Shown: piece after piece, positions 1,343 through 30,242 of the stretch | Position numbering within the stretch: position 1 is the stretch's first letter | Layout: every line of letters begins with the position of its first letter | Source: a virus | IMG/VR virus record: IMGVR_UViG_3300044823_000014 | Coordinates: 1-37,944 of that record | DNA: 37,944 bases | Reading direction: 5' to 3' (one strand) | Position numbers and translations under genes: made by a program | The notes under the pieces: generated by a model | What the model saw: only the letters and a program-made list of their open reading frames with translations | What the model was told of the DNA's origin: nothing | Database searches by the model: none

Positions 1343-3122
1343 CTTGGCTCGTCGCGTTCATCGGCATCGGGGCGTTGTCTACCAGCATCCAATCGTTGCC
1401 CATTCGGACCAACCTCTTGTCTCGGTTGAGGGATCGCCGGACGGTATCGACTGCGGCGCCGAGTGCCATCGCGATTGCGGAGGTGGACTGCCGGCCGTTG
1501 CCGATGAACTCGACCGCTCTGTCCGCTACCGAACCTGATCCAGTACCAGGCTGAGCGATGTAGTCGGCCATCTCGAAGGTCGCGGTTTCGGGGGTGACTC
1601 CATCGGGGGACCAGACGAGGCGGTAGGAGATCGGGCGGTACATCTTGGAGTCGTTGACCTTGGTATGACGGAGGGCGCAAGTCACGTCGTCTTCGCCCCT
1701 GGCGATCTCTCCGAGGCTCCAGACGCTCCGAGCGGCGTTGACCTTGTAGACGGACCCGTAGGGGTTCTGGTTGGGCTGCTGGCCCTTCCTGATCGGTCCT
1801 GGCTTGGCTACGTGGTCGATCACGATGACGGTCAGATCAGACCCTAGAACCCGGATGGCTTCGAAGAACTTGAGGGCTCCTTCATTCGCGTCTCCGTACT
1901 CTCCCTGAGAACCGATGGCGGCGCCGGCCGAGTCGATCACGACTAGGACTATCCCGCGTTTGGCGATCTCGGTTGAGAGCTGCTCGGCGTCGTCTGCGAG
2001 AGGTGCGAGGCAGCGACGGTAGGCGATGCGTGGAGGATCGAACCCCATCCCACCCGCGATCTTGCGGATCCGGGTCTTGACGGTCTTGGCGTTGGTCTCC
2101 CAATCGAGGTAGAGGACGGGCCCGGTGATCGCCGGGGGTATGCCGGGGATGATCTCAATGCCCAACTGGACAGAGAGCGCGAGAGCGAGGGCGGCGTAAC
2201 TCTTGCCGCTCCCTCCCGGAGCGAACAGGACGGTTGTTTCGCCGCGGGGTGCTACCGGGTCCAGAGCGTAGGATCGGAACTCGGGCGGCTCATCGAACCC
2301 GTCGATATCCACGATGGGCTCGCCCTTGGACTCCGCGACCAGCACGGCCACGAAGGCCTGCTCGATCACGTCCTGCCAGTCGATCCGCTCGTCCTTCACC
2401 CGGGCCTGGAGGCTCTTGGCGAAGTCCATCCGGCCTTTCGGTGCGGAGAGGTTCTGCCGCCCCATCGAGACGTGTCCGTCCCGGAGATTGATCCCGGGGA
2501 GGTGGCAGACGATCAGGACGTCGGCGGTCGTGTCTGAGGATCGGTGCTTGAGCTTGGTGAAGGTGATCTCGATTTGTTGCGCCGGCCAGGTGAGGAAGTA
2601 ACCGAGGCCGCGTTTCTCCAGCTTGAAGTCGCGGGAGATTGTCCGGCCGGTAGCCTGGAGGTGTAGAAGTTCGGCGGTTGCGCGCTGGACGGCTTCCTCG
2701 GGGTTGCCTCCGTCCTCGTAACCGATCGCGGCGATGCGCCCGGCCGCTCCGATCAGGCGGCGCATAACCGCCTTTCGGGCCACCACCTTGGCGTACTGCA
2801 CGGCATGAACCGAGGTAGGGGTGTCGTTCCCGAGAGCGGAGAGGTAGCTAGCGCCGCCTACGGCTTGGAGCTCACCCGCCCGGTCCAACTCTTCCGCGAG
2901 GAGCACGACGTCCGCCGGCTGCCCCTTTTCATAAAGCCGGAGGGCTGCCGAGTAGATGATGCCGTGGCTCTGACGGTAGAAGTCCGAGGGCTGGAGAACG
3001 TCCATCACGTCCGCGATGACCGCCTGATCTATCAGCAGACTACCTAGGCAGGCGCGCTCGGCCTCGTCATCTCGCGGGGGCGTACCTGCCTCGTCACGCT
3101 TGGCCCGAATGGCTGTCGTCAT
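1338..3122 (-). CDS. Replicative helicase: DnaB N-terminal domain plus RepA-like RecA-fold ATPase
   Basis: 594 aa. Residues about 20-150 match the DnaB N-terminal domain (ERACLGSLLIDQ, then SDFYRQSHGIIYSAALRLYEKG). Residues about 165-265 are a separate module seen in actinobacterial mobile-element ATPases. From about 285 comes a RepA/KaiC-type RecA ATPase with Walker A GGSGKS (303-308), Walker B VVIDSAG (394-400) and VIVIDHVAKPG. A short winged-helix-like tail (TSAIAMALGAAVDTVRRSL) follows. It is probably the phage replicative helicase, or a helicase/loader hybrid. The start overlaps the upstream gene (ATGA), and its own stop overlaps the methyltransferase ATG. I see no primase motif. Confidence 0.85.
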   Translation of the reverse strand: MTTAIRAKRDEAGTPPRDDEAERACLGSLLIDQAVIADVMDVLQPSDFYRQSHGIIYSAALRLYEKGQPADVVLLAEELDRAGELQAVGGASYLSALGNDTPTSVHAVQYAKVVARKAVMRRLIGAAGRIAAIGYEDGGNPEEAVQRATAELLHLQATGRTISRDFKLEKRGLGYFLTWPAQQIEITFTKLKHRSSDTTADVLIVCHLPGINLRDGHVSMGRQNLSAPKGRMDFAKSLQARVKDERIDWQDVIEQAFVAVLVAESKGEPIVDIDGFDEPPEFRSYALDPVAPRGETTVLFAPGGSGKSYAALALALSVQLGIEIIPGIPPAITGPVLYLDWETNAKTVKTRIRKIAGGMGFDPPRIAYRRCLAPLADDAEQLSTEIAKRGIVLVVIDSAGAAIGSQGEYGDANEGALKFFEAIRVLGSDLTVIVIDHVAKPGPIRKGQQPNQNPYGSVYKVNAARSVWSLGEIARGEDDVTCALRHTKVNDSKMYRPISYRLVWSPDGVTPETATFEMADYIAQPGTGSGSVADRAVEFIGNGRQSTSAIAMALGAAVDTVRRSLNRDKRLVRMGNDWMLVDNAPMPMNATSQA

Positions 3123-3385
3123 CGCAACGACTCGTTCAGGTTGGCAAGAGCGGCACTGAGGGCGTCGAATTCCTGCCGGGCGATCCCGACTACTCCCGTC
3201 CCGTCGCCCATCTTGTGTTCGGTCAGGACGAATGCGGTTGAGTCGATTGCCTCTGCCGCGCGGGCTAGGTCTTTCAGTGCCGGCCAGAGGATCGGGGAGA
3301 AGGCAACACGCTTGTACCCTTCCCTCTTCTCGGACCAGATCGCCATGTCGATCTTGAGGGCTTCGAGCCTGTCCGCAGCGGTCAT
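3119..3385 (-). CDS. Hypothetical protein, 88 aa
   Basis: Starts at ATG 3385 within the upstream stop (ATGA) and ends in the helicase start (ATGA). It begins MTAADRLEALK and contains FSPILWPALKDLARAAEAIDS followed by an amphipathic C-terminal helix. Its N-terminus resembles the next gene upstream (MSAADRLAEL), so the two may be diverged duplicates. No function recognised. Confidence 0.7.
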   Translation of the reverse strand: MTAADRLEALKIDMAIWSEKREGYKRVAFSPILWPALKDLARAAEAIDSTAFVLTEHKMGDGTGVVGIARQEFDALSAALANLNESLR

Positions 3386-3666
3386 CCCAGCACCTTTTCC
3401 AGGGCTTCCAGAGCCAACTCCATCCCGTAGGTGTTGCGAGCCGCTTCGGGGATATCGACGTACTGATCCACCGCTCGCACCAGATCCACCAGCGCCGGGA
3501 GGGCGTCCAGGAAGATCACGGCATCGGCGATGTCGAATGCCAGGGTGTCGTCCCGTTGGTTGGCGAGCCACAGAGTCGGCGCGTTCCGGCGCTCCGAGCG
3601 GTGCTTGTCTCCCGGCTCAATCGCCCACTGATCCACAAGCTCGGCGAGCCTGTCGGCGGCGCTCAT
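3382..3666 (-). CDS. Hypothetical protein, 94 aa
   Basis: Acidic helical protein beginning MSAADRLAELVDQW. The C-terminal half, FLDALPALVDLVRAVDQYV, matches the general pattern of small phage proteins that track with early genes. It is coupled by ATGA overlaps on both sides. No domain recognised. Confidence 0.7.
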   Translation of the reverse strand: MSAADRLAELVDQWAIEPGDKHRSERRNAPTLWLANQRDDTLAFDIADAVIFLDALPALVDLVRAVDQYVDIPEAARNTYGMELALEALEKVLG

Positions 3667-5464: not shown

Positions 5465-6173
5465 CCCTTGGCAGCACCGGCCAGTCTCGGGCAATGCTCT
5501 GGTGGGGTTGACGTTCCTCTTCGGGCAGGGCGTCGTTCTTGCGCTTGAGATACGCCTCGAACGATGCGGACTGCTGGAACTTCCAACCCTTCTGAACCTC
5601 GTGGAGCTGGGCCAGGTTCATCATCGCGATCTCCGGGAGCCGGCCGAGACGGATAGCGAGACGTGCGGCCATGAGGGCGTCGGCGGTGGCGCCGTGGGCT
5701 GTGCCTTCCTGGGGGACGTGGTAGAGCGCGGCAACGTCCACGAGCTTGCGGGAGCCCTTGCGGTACGGGTCAACGGCCTTATCGATCACGAGAGGGTCCA
5801 CCACGAGCAACCCGGAGAGGTCGCAGTCTATCCCGTAGCGGTAGCACTCGCGGGAGACGACGGTGAGGTCGTAGGGGGCGTTGTAGATTACGACCGGAAC
5901 CCCGAGCCGGACGGAGCCGTGAAGCTGCGAGACGATCTCGGGCAATGCGTCGGCGGGGTCCATCCCGGTGGCGGCGACTTCATTGGTGATGCCGTGAATG
6001 TCGATGGCTTCCTGCGGGATCTCGACTCCCGGATCGACGAGCCAGGAGCGGTCCTCAGGGGCACTCAGGGCGTTGCGCCAGAGGCAGGCGGCGGAGACTA
6101 TCCGCGCTGTCTCGGGGTCGGTGCCGGTGGTCTCTGTGTCGAAGGAGAGGATGAGGCCGTCGGACCAGCTCAT
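5454..6173 (-). CDS. DnaQ-like 3'-5' exonuclease (DEDDh)
   Basis: 239 aa. Exo I motif SFDTETTGTD gives D12 and E14. Then IHGIT, exo II YNAPYDLTVVSRE, and exo III HGATADALMAARLA with the DEDDh histidine and aspartate. This is the epsilon-subunit fold, and the protein is a stand-alone nuclease without a polymerase. It probably acts in phage DNA replication or recombination. ATGA overlap with the upstream gene; its C-terminus ...VDK-stop is formed by the -35 region of promoter a. Confidence 0.9.
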   Translation of the reverse strand: MSWSDGLILSFDTETTGTDPETARIVSAACLWRNALSAPEDRSWLVDPGVEIPQEAIDIHGITNEVAATGMDPADALPEIVSQLHGSVRLGVPVVIYNAPYDLTVVSRECYRYGIDCDLSGLLVVDPLVIDKAVDPYRKGSRKLVDVAALYHVPQEGTAHGATADALMAARLAIRLGRLPEIAMMNLAQLHEVQKGWKFQQSASFEAYLKRKNDALPEEERQPHQSIARDWPVLPRVDK

Positions 6174-26980: not shown

Positions 26981-28171
26981 GTTCGAGACCTCCTGTGGGG
27001 GGACTGTGCGGCGACCTGCCGCTGGATCGGCGCTTGCATTGGTCTCACGGAGATGGCGCCACGACTCCGCGAGGTTGACGATCTGGCCGCCGGCACCTGC
27101 GACGGTCACGAAGTCGACCGAGCCCAGCGGGTCCGCGATGATCCGCTCGACGATCGGCCCCTTCTTGCCTTCGGCCTCTCCGCTCTTTGCCATGCCCTTC
27201 ATGCGGATCGAGGTTCCGATGTTGGGGGCCAGCTGCTCGAGGAGCGGCGCGAACTCGCGGAGCGGCTTGGCGGGGGCGTACAGCCCCGGACCCGCCAGAC
27301 CGGCGGGGTCCCAGACAGCCGAGGCGGAGAGCACGGCGCCGATGTCCTTGATGGATCGCTCCGGTCGGTCGGCCTCTTCGGCGTAGCCCGGGTGGTCCAC
27401 GAACATCCGGGTGCCGGCGGTGAAGACCACAGGGCCGTCACGCTTGAGGACCTCTTCGGAGTAGTACCCGCTCGAGCCCCATCCCGGCTGGATGAGCTTG
27501 ATGAGCATGGTGCCATCCGGGCGGACCACCGACTCCACCAGCGGGATGATGTCGCCCGTCAGTTCGACCGCGCTCTCTGCGGTGGTCGTGGTGCTGGAGT
27601 AGTACGTGGTCACGTTGGCCGGCGCGTCCACGTCGTCATCGGGTCCGCCGATCTCCCCGATCTCCGCCGTGACCCACGCGAGGACGAGAGGCACGACTGC
27701 CATCAGGCCCTCGTACACCTTCTGCAGCATGGCGACCTGATCCGGTTCGTCCGACTCGTCACTGATGAGGTACAGCGTGGACTGAGCGGCGTACTCGATC
27801 GACGTCACGATCCCGACGCCACGAGCGGCGTCCTGGGCTTCGCCGGAGTAGGCCTCCATCGCTCGCAGCGACTCAGCGGCCGGCTCTTCGCCGTCTCCGA
27901 GCGCCTTGAGAACGGCGTCGATGTTGGCGGCGGCGGCGCGGAGTTGCTTCTCGTTCGCAGCCGAGAGGACGCGCCCGACCTCGCGAAGGGCCAGGTGAGC
28001 ACTGGCGGCCTCGTTCATCATGCCGGCCATCTTGGTCGCAGCCTTCCCGGCGTCTTCCTGGGACATACCGCGCCCGACAGCCTTGTTGGCCATCTTGACC
28101 CATGCGGCCTTTGCCTTGTCGGAGCCCTTCGGGAGGGCCTCTGTTGCATCGTCAGCGGTGAACGCAGCCAT
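26555..28171 (-). CDS. Capsid maturation protease with C-terminal scaffold
   Basis: 538 aa. N-terminal part has SDKAKAAWVKMANKAVGRG, a ChaB-like segment. Protease-like core at about 205-360: IIPLVESVVRPDGTMLIKLI, FVDHPG (H260) and GSVDFVTVAGAGG (S351), fitting a Ser/His prohead protease. Residues 398-538 are coiled, Ala/Glu-rich scaffold. It overlaps the minor head stop by one base (TAATG). The scaffold part also has its own start at 26980. Confidence 0.75.
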   Translation of the reverse strand: MAAFTADDATEALPKGSDKAKAAWVKMANKAVGRGMSQEDAGKAATKMAGMMNEAASAHLALREVGRVLSAANEKQLRAAAANIDAVLKALGDGEEPAAESLRAMEAYSGEAQDAARGVGIVTSIEYAAQSTLYLISDESDEPDQVAMLQKVYEGLMAVVPLVLAWVTAEIGEIGGPDDDVDAPANVTTYYSSTTTTAESAVELTGDIIPLVESVVRPDGTMLIKLIQPGWGSSGYYSEEVLKRDGPVVFTAGTRMFVDHPGYAEEADRPERSIKDIGAVLSASAVWDPAGLAGPGLYAPAKPLREFAPLLEQLAPNIGTSIRMKGMAKSGEAEGKKGPIVERIIADPLGSVDFVTVAGAGGQIVNLAESWRHLRETNASADPAAGRRTVPPQEVSNMDLQETQTKLAAAETARDTALAEAARATEALILREARDVVVTELASAKIPDITRTRLSESLGKNPPVKDGKLDTDALKASVKEAVAAEIDYLAKITGSGQVRGLGGTSTAAPIDVEKSLTESFKALGMSDSGAALAAAGRR

Positions 28172-29874
28172 TAGGCGGCCTCCTCGGCTCTCTGGTACAG
28201 GACGTCGCAGCGGCAGTTGTGTACAATCACCCTATTGGCGGTGTACCAGCCGTCTACGGTTTCGAGGTTGTAGACATGACCAGCAAATGGATACCGGAGG
28301 ACCCGGATGATCTCTGTCGGCGTTACCTGTCCGGCGTATCGGTGAATGCTCTCGCGCAGGAAAGCAGCATCAGCCGTCGCGTCATCGACCGCGTGCTCCA
28401 CGAACGGGGCATTGAGCGCCGGGGCAGCACGGACGCCAACCGGCTCATGGCTGCCGGCCGGACCACCGAGCAGCGGCGCGCCTACGCCGAGGCCGCCCAC
28501 GCTGCGGTCCGCGGCAGCCATCGGAGCATGATCGCCAAGGAACGGCTCGCTCAGACCATCGAGCGCCTCGGCCGAAGCACTCCCGGCGAAACGCTCTTTG
28601 CCCTGTGGCTGCGAGCACGCGGAGTCGAGACGGTTCCCCAACTCGCGATCGGCCCATACAACTGCGATCTTGGAGCCGGACCCGTCGCCGTGGAAATCTT
28701 CGGCGGCAACTGGCACGGCTCGGGGCGTCACGCCGCTCGCTTCGTGGAGCGCACCCGCTACCTGATCGAGCACGGTCTGAATGTCGTCATCGTGTGGAGC
28801 ATCGGACCCTGCCCGCTGAGCGAGAGAGCGGCTGACTACGTGGCCGCCTTCGTGGAGCGATCCAAACGCAACCCATCCTTCCGGGGTGAGTACCGGATGA
28901 TTTGGGGTGGCGGCGAGGAGTGCGCCATCGGCGGTCTCGATCTCGACCATCTCGCCGTCGTACCACCGCATGGTCGCGCCCACCGCCTGCGGCCCTGAAA
29001 CCATCGTCCCGGCGGGGAAGCAACTCGGGTGCGTGGGTGGGGGATCGTTGGGGAAGTCGTCGTTGACGGAGATCCAACCAACGCCCTGGTTGTCCGAGCA
29101 GTCGTCGCAGGCGTCGTCTTCGGCGATGACGCTCTGCTCCATGTCGAGTCCGGCGGCCGAGAGGTCATCCACGACGGATCGCGAGCCGGCCTCGTATGCG
29201 AATGCGGACTCCGTAACGGCGATGACATCGGCGCGGTCGCGGAGGAACGAGGGGATGCCGGGCTGTGCGCTGTTCTCCCATCCGTCGTAGGTCGAGCGGA
29301 TGGAGCTGGCGATCTTGTTGTACGAGTCGCCCTGAGCCAGCCCGTCGGTGATGACCTTCTCGAGCGTCTGGCGGGTGGTCTCGTTGATGCCCACGACCTG
29401 CTCGGCTGCACGTCCGGCGAGCCACGTAACCGCGCGGGGGTTACTGAGGCTGAACGTCTCGTCGATGTCGAGGCTCATGGACTGCCACGTCCCGCCGGCC
29501 TTCATCGCGGCTTCGAGTCCGGCCTGTAGCGGATCGGTGAAGAGCGACAGGGTTGCGGAGGCGGCGTCGTTGAATGGGATGTCCCATCGCGTGACGGCTT
29601 CGCGCAGGCGGCGGTGAACGGTTGGGGCCGCTACTCGCGCCGCCTCATTCGTGGGGAACCCCGCACCCGTCAGGACCATCGCGGAGAGGAACGCCTTGCG
29701 CTGTGCGGTGAAGGCCACGCGGAGCGATCGTGCCAGGTCGCGCTCTACCGGCGTCAGGGCCTTGATCTTGGCGGAGCGGACCGATTGGGCCGTCATGGCC
29801 TCGCGGATCGCCTGGTAGCGTCCTAGCGCGTCTGACGCGGCCTGCAGATGGGCGGAGAAGTAGAGGGCGGTCAT
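28171..29874 (-). CDS. Minor head protein (SPP1 gp7 / Mu gpF-like) interrupted by an intein
   Basis: 567-aa precursor; ATG 29874 overlaps the upstream stop (ATGA), so the longer ORF to 30066 is rejected. Exteins: residues 1-284 (helical, with RADVIAVTESAFAYEAGSRS and DDACDDCSDNQGVGW ... PPTHPS) and 554-567 (CRCDVLYQRAEEAA). Joined they give the family's HPxCRC motif and a usual length of 298 aa. The intein (285-553) must be removed to restore the zinc-like motif. The protein takes part in head assembly beside the portal. Confidence 0.88.
   Translation of the reverse strand: MTALYFSAHLQAASDALGRYQAIREAMTAQSVRSAKIKALTPVERDLARSLRVAFTAQRKAFLSAMVLTGAGFPTNEAARVAAPTVHRRLREAVTRWDIPFNDAASATLSLFTDPLQAGLEAAMKAGGTWQSMSLDIDETFSLSNPRAVTWLAGRAAEQVVGINETTRQTLEKVITDGLAQGDSYNKIASSIRSTYDGWENSAQPGIPSFLRDRADVIAVTESAFAYEAGSRSVVDDLSAAGLDMEQSVIAEDDACDDCSDNQGVGWISVNDDFPNDPPPTHPSCFPAGTMVSGPQAVGATMRWYDGEMVEIETADGALLAATPNHPVLTPEGWVAFGSLHEGGHVVSRSLAQRAGSDAPHDDDIQTVLDQVAGALHEASGVTPRAVPVAAEDFHGDGSGSKIAVVWADRELGNRLDSACSQPQGKERFAGSASAEALDGLSEPFLGDHAPMAAADRSVGGLGVGAPLLGGPAGSHEPVGVRAAPALNAPFVEHAVDDATADAAFLRESIHRYAGQVTPTEIIRVLRYPFAGHVYNLETVDGWYTANRVIVHNCRCDVLYQRAEEAA
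28216..29022 (-). mobile_element. Intein in minor head protein, 269 aa
   Basis: Starts with C285 (CFPAGTMVSG, block A), block B TPNHPVLTPEGWV, and ends with block F VYNLETVDGWYTAN and block G VIVHN before extein C554. All splice residues are present: Cys1, the TPNH histidine, the penultimate His, the last Asn and the +1 Cys. No LAGLIDADG or HNH domain is encoded in this frame; the central 170 residues are low-complexity Ala/Gly/Asp-rich sequence. An endonuclease gene occupies the opposite strand instead. Confidence 0.9.
28276..28998 (+). CDS. Vsr-like (EDxHD-type) homing endonuclease, antisense within the intein
   Basis: 240 aa from ATG 28276 with GAGG eight bases upstream; a GTG at 28219 is an alternative. 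Residues about 8-50 form a resolvase-like HTH (CRRYLSGVSVNALAQESSIS, RRVIDRVLHERG). Residues about 100-185 are a Vsr/PD-(D/E)XK-type nuclease: TPGETLFALWLRARGV (E105), YNCDLG (D131), VAVEIFGGNWH (E140, H147), then RYLIEHGLNVVIVW. This resembles the I-Bth0305I family found with split inteins. The whole gene lies within the intein on the other strand. It probably mobilises the intein DNA. Confidence 0.85.
   Translation: MTSKWIPEDPDDLCRRYLSGVSVNALAQESSISRRVIDRVLHERGIERRGSTDANRLMAAGRTTEQRRAYAEAAHAAVRGSHRSMIAKERLAQTIERLGRSTPGETLFALWLRARGVETVPQLAIGPYNCDLGAGPVAVEIFGGNWHGSGRHAARFVERTRYLIEHGLNVVIVWSIGPCPLSERAADYVAAFVERSKRNPSFRGEYRMIWGGGEECAIGGLDLDHLAVVPPHGRAHRLRP
29426..29444. promoter_or_regulatory. 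Intragenic 19-bp palindrome (site f)
   Basis: Perfect GTAACC-N7-GGTTAC inside the minor head gene. No -35 or -10 is seen beside it on either strand. It could be a stoperator-like roadblock site. Confidence 0.55.
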
Positions 29875-30242
29875 GGGTGCAACCAGGCAGCGAGCGAGTG
29901 AGCGTTGTTCAGGACCAGCAGGACCACGGAGACACTGCCCACGATGGCGAGGGCCCAACGGAAGAACCGGAAGACTCCGCGTACCTCGTCGCGGATCGTG
30001 GTCAGCACCGTGAGGGCCGCGAGGGCTTGGATGCGGGCGGCCTCCGCTGCGACTGCGGCCTCGCACGCCTTCTCCCGGGCGTCATCGGATCGGCGGAGTA
30101 GCTCTCGGCCTGCGGGGGTGTTGTGGGGGGCGTTATTGGCGTCCTCCAACCGCTTGACCGTCTCGGCGATCGAGCCCACCTGTTCACGGATCCACTTCGT
30201 ATCGTTCTCAAGCGCCACGAGTCGCTCCCCTTGCGTTGTCAC
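29871..30242 (-). CDS. Coiled-coil protein with C-terminal membrane anchor, 123 aa
   Basis: N-terminal coiled coil (GERLVALENDTKWIREQVGS, ETVKRLEDAN), Ala/Glu helix, then one C-terminal membrane span (ALAIVGSVSVVLLVLN). It overlaps the portal stop (ATGA or similar) and the minor head start. It looks like a spanin- or holin-like accessory but is in the head module; role unknown. Confidence 0.6.
   Translation of the reverse strand: MTTQGERLVALENDTKWIREQVGSIAETVKRLEDANNAPHNTPAGRELLRRSDDAREKACEAAVAAEAARIQALAALTVLTTIRDEVRGVFRFFRWALAIVGSVSVVLLVLNNAHSLAAWLHP

Follow-up and report, generated by a model that had tools for sequence, protein, structure and literature searches.

Within the window (the whole 37,944-nt stretch of viral DNA analysed here), a minor head gene is interrupted by an intein, and the opposite strand of the same DNA carries a nuclease gene. 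The question that this locus raises is whether the nuclease is the homing endonuclease of the very intein in which it is embedded. We consider that it is, and put the probability at about 0.9 that the element is a mobile intein whose homing endonuclease lies antisense to its own splicing domain. The features concerned are collected in Table 1.

Table 1. Features of the intein-containing minor head locus, as positions in the window
Feature	Position	Strand	Remarks
Minor head (Mu F-like) gene carrying the intein	28171..29874	-	Spliced product 298 aa
N-extein, 284 aa, C-terminal end ...DPPPTHPS	29023..29874	-	
Intein, 269 aa, C1 to N269, extein +1 Cys	28216..29022	-	Hint fold predicted
C-extein CRCDVLYQRAEEAA	28174..28215	-	
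Intein block B TPNHP, residues 39-43, antisense to nuclease C-terminal tail	28894..28908	-	
Intein motif EDFHGDG, residues 108-114, antisense to nuclease catalytic strand (residues 136-142)	28681..28701	-	
Intein residues 129-216, predicted disordered, antisense to nuclease N-terminal half	28375..28638	-	
Antisense homing endonuclease gene (predicted), 240 aa, HTH + EDxHD/Vsr-fold nuclease	28276..28998	+	
Helix-turn-helix, nuclease residues 10-43	28303..28404	+	
Putative catalytic stretch Y128 N129 D131 ... E140 I F G G N W H147	28657..28716	+	Y128, N129, D131, E140 and F142-H147 invariant among 46 homologues
Shine-Dalgarno GAGG, 8 nt before nuclease ATG, antisense of block F Asn-Leu codons	28264..28267	+	
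Nuclease start codon ATG, antisense of block F His249 (CAT)	28276..28278	+	

The minus-strand ORF (28171-30066; host protein start ATG at 29874) is open through the entire insert, which extends from C285 (29022) to N553 (28216) and is flanked by HPS and the extein CRC. In Pfam, the host protein matches Phage_Mu_F (E 2e-7) and the insert matches Intein_splicing (E 6e-5), the latter falling under the curated cut-off, which is passed by the relatives L012 and L046; PDB sequence matches of the insert are to the Mtu RecA intein (E 2e-6). The marks of a class 1 intein are present, namely, a nucleophilic residue 1, a block B TxxH, a C-terminal Asn and a +1 Cys: C1, T39, H42 and N269 are invariant in the intein alignments, and the +1 Cys is found in complete inteins. 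The AlphaFold model of the intein has high confidence for residues 1-65 and 223-269, with residues 129-216 disordered; therefore, the Hint domain appears to use the ends of the intein, with the middle serving as filler. In the PDB, this model is matched best by the splicing domains of RecA inteins (Mtu RecA intein, E 3e-4). The insert is in frame and stop-free, and its Hint domain is conserved at the protein level, unlike a ribozyme intron. Moreover, the host gene is unbroken, with a single ORF spanning the intein rather than the two expected of a split intein. The reading of the insert as a contiguous 269-aa intein in the minor head protein, already made in the initial annotation, is borne out by the uninterrupted frame from C285 to N553 and by the Pfam and RecA intein matches, and the intein would be expected to splice autocatalytically. 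It could instead be supposed that the intein no longer splices, that the protein works with the insert in place and that the insert is a tolerated loop in which the nuclease persists as a parasite, an idea put forward for the ShiLan domain (discussed below). The sub-threshold Intein_splicing match in the window would be in keeping with this, but C1, T39 and H42 of block B, the C-terminal Asn and the +1 Cys are all conserved, a Hint fold is predicted, two relatives pass the Pfam cut-off and the ends of the insert evolve synonymously for the intein, such that we regard a non-splicing insert as highly improbable.

Family searches of the window intein found no LAGLIDADG, HNH or other endonuclease family in the intein frame; together with the predicted disorder of residues 129-216, this agrees with the earlier claim that the middle of the intein encodes no in-frame endonuclease. 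The motif EDFHGDG was considered as an in-frame endonuclease motif and rejected: it is kept in a 161-aa mini-intein of the same family (L226, ending near 5998), which has lost the nuclease and retains blocks A, B, F and G, and, therefore, the motif belongs to the intein.

The 240-aa plus-strand ORF starts with ATG, lies wholly within the intein and encodes an N-terminal helix-turn-helix (HTH). The product weakly matches MTES_1575, a Vsr-like nuclease family, in Pfam, and its AlphaFold model has a mean pLDDT of 88, with low confidence for the C-terminal tail antisense to block B. The best interpretable PDB matches of the model in Foldseek are I-Bth0305I (3r3p; probability 1.00, E 0.017) and Vsr (1cw0; probability 1.00, E 0.079); these E-values are modest, and a profile search agrees with them (3hrl, E 2e-4; 3r3p, 0.01; 1cw0, 0.012). 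In an alignment of 46 sequences, Y128, N129, D131, E140, F142, G143, G144, N145, W146, H147 and R159 are invariant, and E105 is kept in 90% or more of the aligned homologues. The fold matches uphold the Vsr-like identity first suggested from the sequence. EDxHD/Vsr-like homing endonuclease genes occur between the halves of split inteins, and the initial annotation had proposed kinship with that arrangement; this holds for the nuclease fold only, and descent from a fractured-gene arrangement is not upheld. Enzymes of this type, such as I-Bth0305I, resemble the present one in their catalytic fold and in belonging to mobile elements of phages, but they are intron-borne or lie between gene fragments, whereas the present nuclease gene lies antisense within an intein of an intact host gene.

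The length of the nuclease ORF was rejected as evidence for a gene. The window is 65% GC and antisense ORFs of 260-640 aa are common (e.g. 642, 461, 446 and 373 aa), so the antisense ORF alone is no more than chance would provide. It might then be a by-product of high GC content and intein codon usage, with only the intein being real, a reading that is helped both by this abundance and by the fact that the in-register antisense frame is the easiest to keep open by synonymous choice. Indeed, the two genes share one codon register, in which an antisense stop arises only from a sense TTA, CTA or TCA; consequently, these three codons alone have to be avoided, and synonymous choice can maintain both frames. 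Against a by-product, the forbidden codons are entirely missing from the nucleases (0 observed versus 245 expected from local codon usage) across loci of 38-71% GC, with the count also zero in genomes of 38-45% GC, although, as the loci are related, the summed probability is not a P value. The same layout is present in loci of 38-43% GC, and the nuclease fold is confidently predicted. It is the 61 homologues in identical arrangement, together with the selection tests described below, that place the nuclease ORF far above chance.

These homologues, with 31-92% identity, were found in a scan of viral contigs, and the nuclease is antisense within an open intein frame in 61/61; adding the window, 62/62 loci have one register, the antisense codons being the exact reverse complements of the nuclease codons. 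Those inteins with ends that can be placed share one site, HPxC^CRC or a close variant, and Mu F-type or related minor capsid domains were recognized as the host by Pfam in eight of ten sampled loci. A search from the intein side found the antisense nuclease in 80/80 of the closest of 324 loci, these 80 being partly the same contigs as the 61. A third search used only the pattern NGIxxHN^CRC, which is the intein end and contains no nuclease information: 97 of 119 stretches among the matches listed have the nuclease, and the remaining 22 comprise fragments at contig edges, C-terminal parts of other inteins, and distinct inteins located here or elsewhere. Among cultured phages, the nuclease was found in 117 records (Salmonella 63, Gordonia 15, Pseudomonas 15, Klebsiella 8, E. 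coli 6 and others). The records inspected annotate the minor head gene, and some of them also the intein, and either omit the antisense gene or list it as 'hypothetical'. A scan of genome_contigs for the nuclease outside inteins gave one locus (L063), again with an antisense intein, and a plasmid scan gave two matches, one of which falls within a gene annotated as 'phage minor head protein'. Conservation of the antisense ORF among related inteins, one of the points on which the initial annotation had staked its proposal, was borne out (61/61, 80/80 and 97/119), and every computational test run came out in favour of an intein endonuclease encoded on the opposite strand.

Several variations on this layout were seen. 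Inteins of ~310-340 aa (L003, L021, L050 and L137) encode a nuclease that is longer by ~50 aa close to the first HTH, which may be duplicated there. The same intein type with an antisense nuclease also occupies another site, located at the first Cys of the MuF domain, in Escherichia phage vB-Eco-KMB36 (L069; junction DSRTST^CRARDG, the match containing a stop) and Mycobacterium phage Sejanus (L067; WV^CTIDG), and L024 seemingly has two inteins in one gene. With regard to annotation, the PHROG profile phrog_15127 ('head protein') takes in the N-terminal half of this intein, and in GenBank records of Jerseyvirus and Kagunavirus, the intein-containing minor head gene is often given as one head protein or ADP-ribosyltransferase.

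Both the intein and the nuclease genes are conserved and under selection. Conservation crosses over along the element, the middle being better kept as nuclease and the ends as intein. Among single-change codons in 25 disjoint pairs, synonymous and non-synonymous changes in the HTH half number 554 and 335 when read as nuclease versus 209 and 680 when read as intein, whereas at the C-terminal end of the intein they number 18 and 182 versus 162 and 38, respectively; sign tests give 1e-7 for both regions, in opposite directions. The nuclease-synonymous substitution in the middle refutes a by-product. The sole close pair that includes the window itself, with L002, has 6 synonymous and 9 non-synonymous changes in the nuclease core, too few to show nuclease selection alone. 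Opposite the nuclease catalytic strand, the codons of the EDFHGDG region are nearly fixed by both proteins. The nuclease was also considered as a pseudogene, and this was rejected: among 107 non-redundant inteins, a stop in the core is seen only in L009 and L043, with other stops falling mostly in the C-terminal tail.

The translation signals of the nuclease are likewise written into the splicing domain, as both its ATG and the neighbouring Shine-Dalgarno sequence are reverse complements of block F codons (GHVYNL). The block F His is encoded by CAT in 56/70 inteins, compared with a local expectation of 40% and with 31% for the block B His, and the block F Leu by CTC or CTT in 62/70, compared with 49% expected; in GYVYNL variants of block F, the ATG lies mostly two codons downstream instead. 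This codon bias at both signals is a further point against an antisense by-product, to which we give next to no credence. No sigma-70 promoter or terminator-like site was found near the nuclease gene, an absence that says little.

If the nuclease is a homing endonuclease, intein-free alleles and traces of transfer would be expected. Two intein-free relatives with empty sites of the window type, L339 (70% identical) and L340 (62%), have HPNCRC and HPGCRC, respectively, where the intein would be inserted, and the 298-aa product of joining the window exteins aligns to both with no gap at the junction. An 816-bp intein is present in Salmonella phages SE1 and PhiSTP2, and exactly absent from VSiA and PhiSTP1 (site HPN^CRS). 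SE1 and PhiSTP2, both with the intein, are 97-100% identical from ~190 nt upstream through the C-extein, compared with 81-88% further upstream, whereas the identity between SE1 and the intein-free VSiA is 96-100% as far as ~180 nt upstream of the site and falls to 78-93% past that point. This pattern is the co-conversion tract expected of homing, seen in Salmonella-phage relatives rather than in the phage of the window, and, with the intein-free alleles, it points to homing. In the Gordonia phage genus Vividuovirus, one site holds three different inteins within N-extein DNA that is 93-98% identical: those of Vivi2/Fosterous (antisense Vsr type), Sedona (divergent antisense Vsr type) and Lennon/Barsten/Nordenberg. 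The nuclease might be real yet have another job, such as the exclusion of co-infecting phages or Vsr-like DNA repair, with intein mobility being incidental; its catalytic fold is, after all, common to the Vsr repair enzyme. However, all the examined homologues sit in inteins of one domain type, the presence and absence of the intein is accompanied by co-conversion, and a single site in the nearly identical Gordonia genes is occupied by three different inteins, all of which make another job unlikely.

For the preferred reading, a mobile intein with an antisense homing endonuclease, we propose the following mechanism. The minus strand would be translated with the minor head protein, and the Hint domain (~1-125 plus 223-269) would excise itself, ligating HPS to CRC. 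A separate homing endonuclease gene, with its own timing and promoter of expression, would be read from the plus strand of this DNA; in its product, the HTH would recognize DNA and the EDxHD/Vsr fold would cut it. The targets would be intein-free minor head alleles, cut at or near HPxC/CRC, and repair by recombination would copy the intein and flanking DNA into the cut allele. Each protein would carry filler opposite the essential part of the other: the intein middle (129-216) antisense to the HTH half, and the nuclease C-terminal tail (from ~206) antisense to block B.

The Lennon-type intein is of a different kind, with an antisense ORF in the same register that contains the LAGLIDADG-like motif VAAFIDGEG. 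Between Lennon and Barsten (codons 40-200), 42 changed codons are synonymous and at most 10 non-synonymous for the nuclease (table summed by hand), whereas for the intein, 5 or 6 are synonymous and >45 non-synonymous. Antisense LAGLIDADG-type loci, with inteins in MuF-like genes, are L332 (Gordonia phage Lennon, match 3001-3525), L333, L334, L294, L269 and L267, the site in Gordonia phages being VIN^CRC. The motif is IAGLFDADG in L269, which has weak LAGLIDADG matches in Pfam (E 0.001, under the cut-off), and IAAFIDGEG in L294, which is matched by free-standing phage homing endonucleases; L267 looks degenerate. Since the antisense nuclease of the Lennon-type inteins is unrelated to the Vsr type, these sequences indicate that antisense intein endonucleases very probably arose at least twice. 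Separately, three loci (L229, with an intein ending near 3017, L233 and L245) have an in-frame Vsr/DUF559-type nuclease at the minor head site (for L229, Pfam DUF559 E 7.5e-14 and a treble-clef-like match), and, therefore, the same enzyme fold is found both in frame and antisense.

The element shares much with inteins that have in-frame endonucleases, whether LAGLIDADG (e.g. PI-MtuI) or HNH: a contiguous Hint domain, a conserved host site, an endonuclease, intein-free alleles and co-conversion. It differs in having its endonuclease as an independent gene on the other strand, which overlaps the splicing domain codon by codon. A survey by Gosselin et al. is said to cover actinobacteriophage inteins with non-canonical architecture, and it may include Gordonia or Mycobacterium cases, overlapping frames or part of the present finding; that possibility aside, we found no antisense intein endonuclease in the literature. 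The available sections of three papers (PMC6776784, PMC8425127 and PMC11162368) mention inteins in these minor head genes and do not describe the antisense gene. The ShiLan domain (PMC11855218) is comparable in that a homing endonuclease is hidden in an alternative (third) frame of a stop-free insertion in a phage gene, but the enzyme is HNH, there is no splicing domain and no antisense strand is mentioned. Antisense homing endonuclease genes are known in group I introns, where the enzyme I-DsqI is active (PMC9548176); these too are antisense to their host element, but that host is a ribozyme intron in rDNA, so there is no double protein coding.

As far as the literature found shows, this is an undescribed way of packaging an intein with its homing endonuclease. 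Antisense, register-aligned endonuclease genes are probably a general and repeatedly evolved intein architecture, so far of the Vsr and LAGLIDADG types, in which both strands are read over almost the whole element, and the start codon and ribosome-binding site lie in block F. It is also a long and well-supported case of double-strand protein coding (~240 codons in >100 non-redundant sequences), providing a large natural data set on dual-strand constraint, including the catalytic strand/EDFHGDG stretch, where both proteins need the same codons. If our reading is correct, expression of the nuclease would be freed from the late capsid operon, and existing in-frame surveys would be blind to antisense endonucleases; an antisense nuclease may be concealed in inteins that are currently listed as lacking an endonuclease or as having unknown content. 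Cultured phages of Gordonia, Mycobacterium and E. coli would allow questions about homing to be addressed, namely, how a nuclease comes to be expressed independently of a late structural gene and whether the overlap slows its decay.
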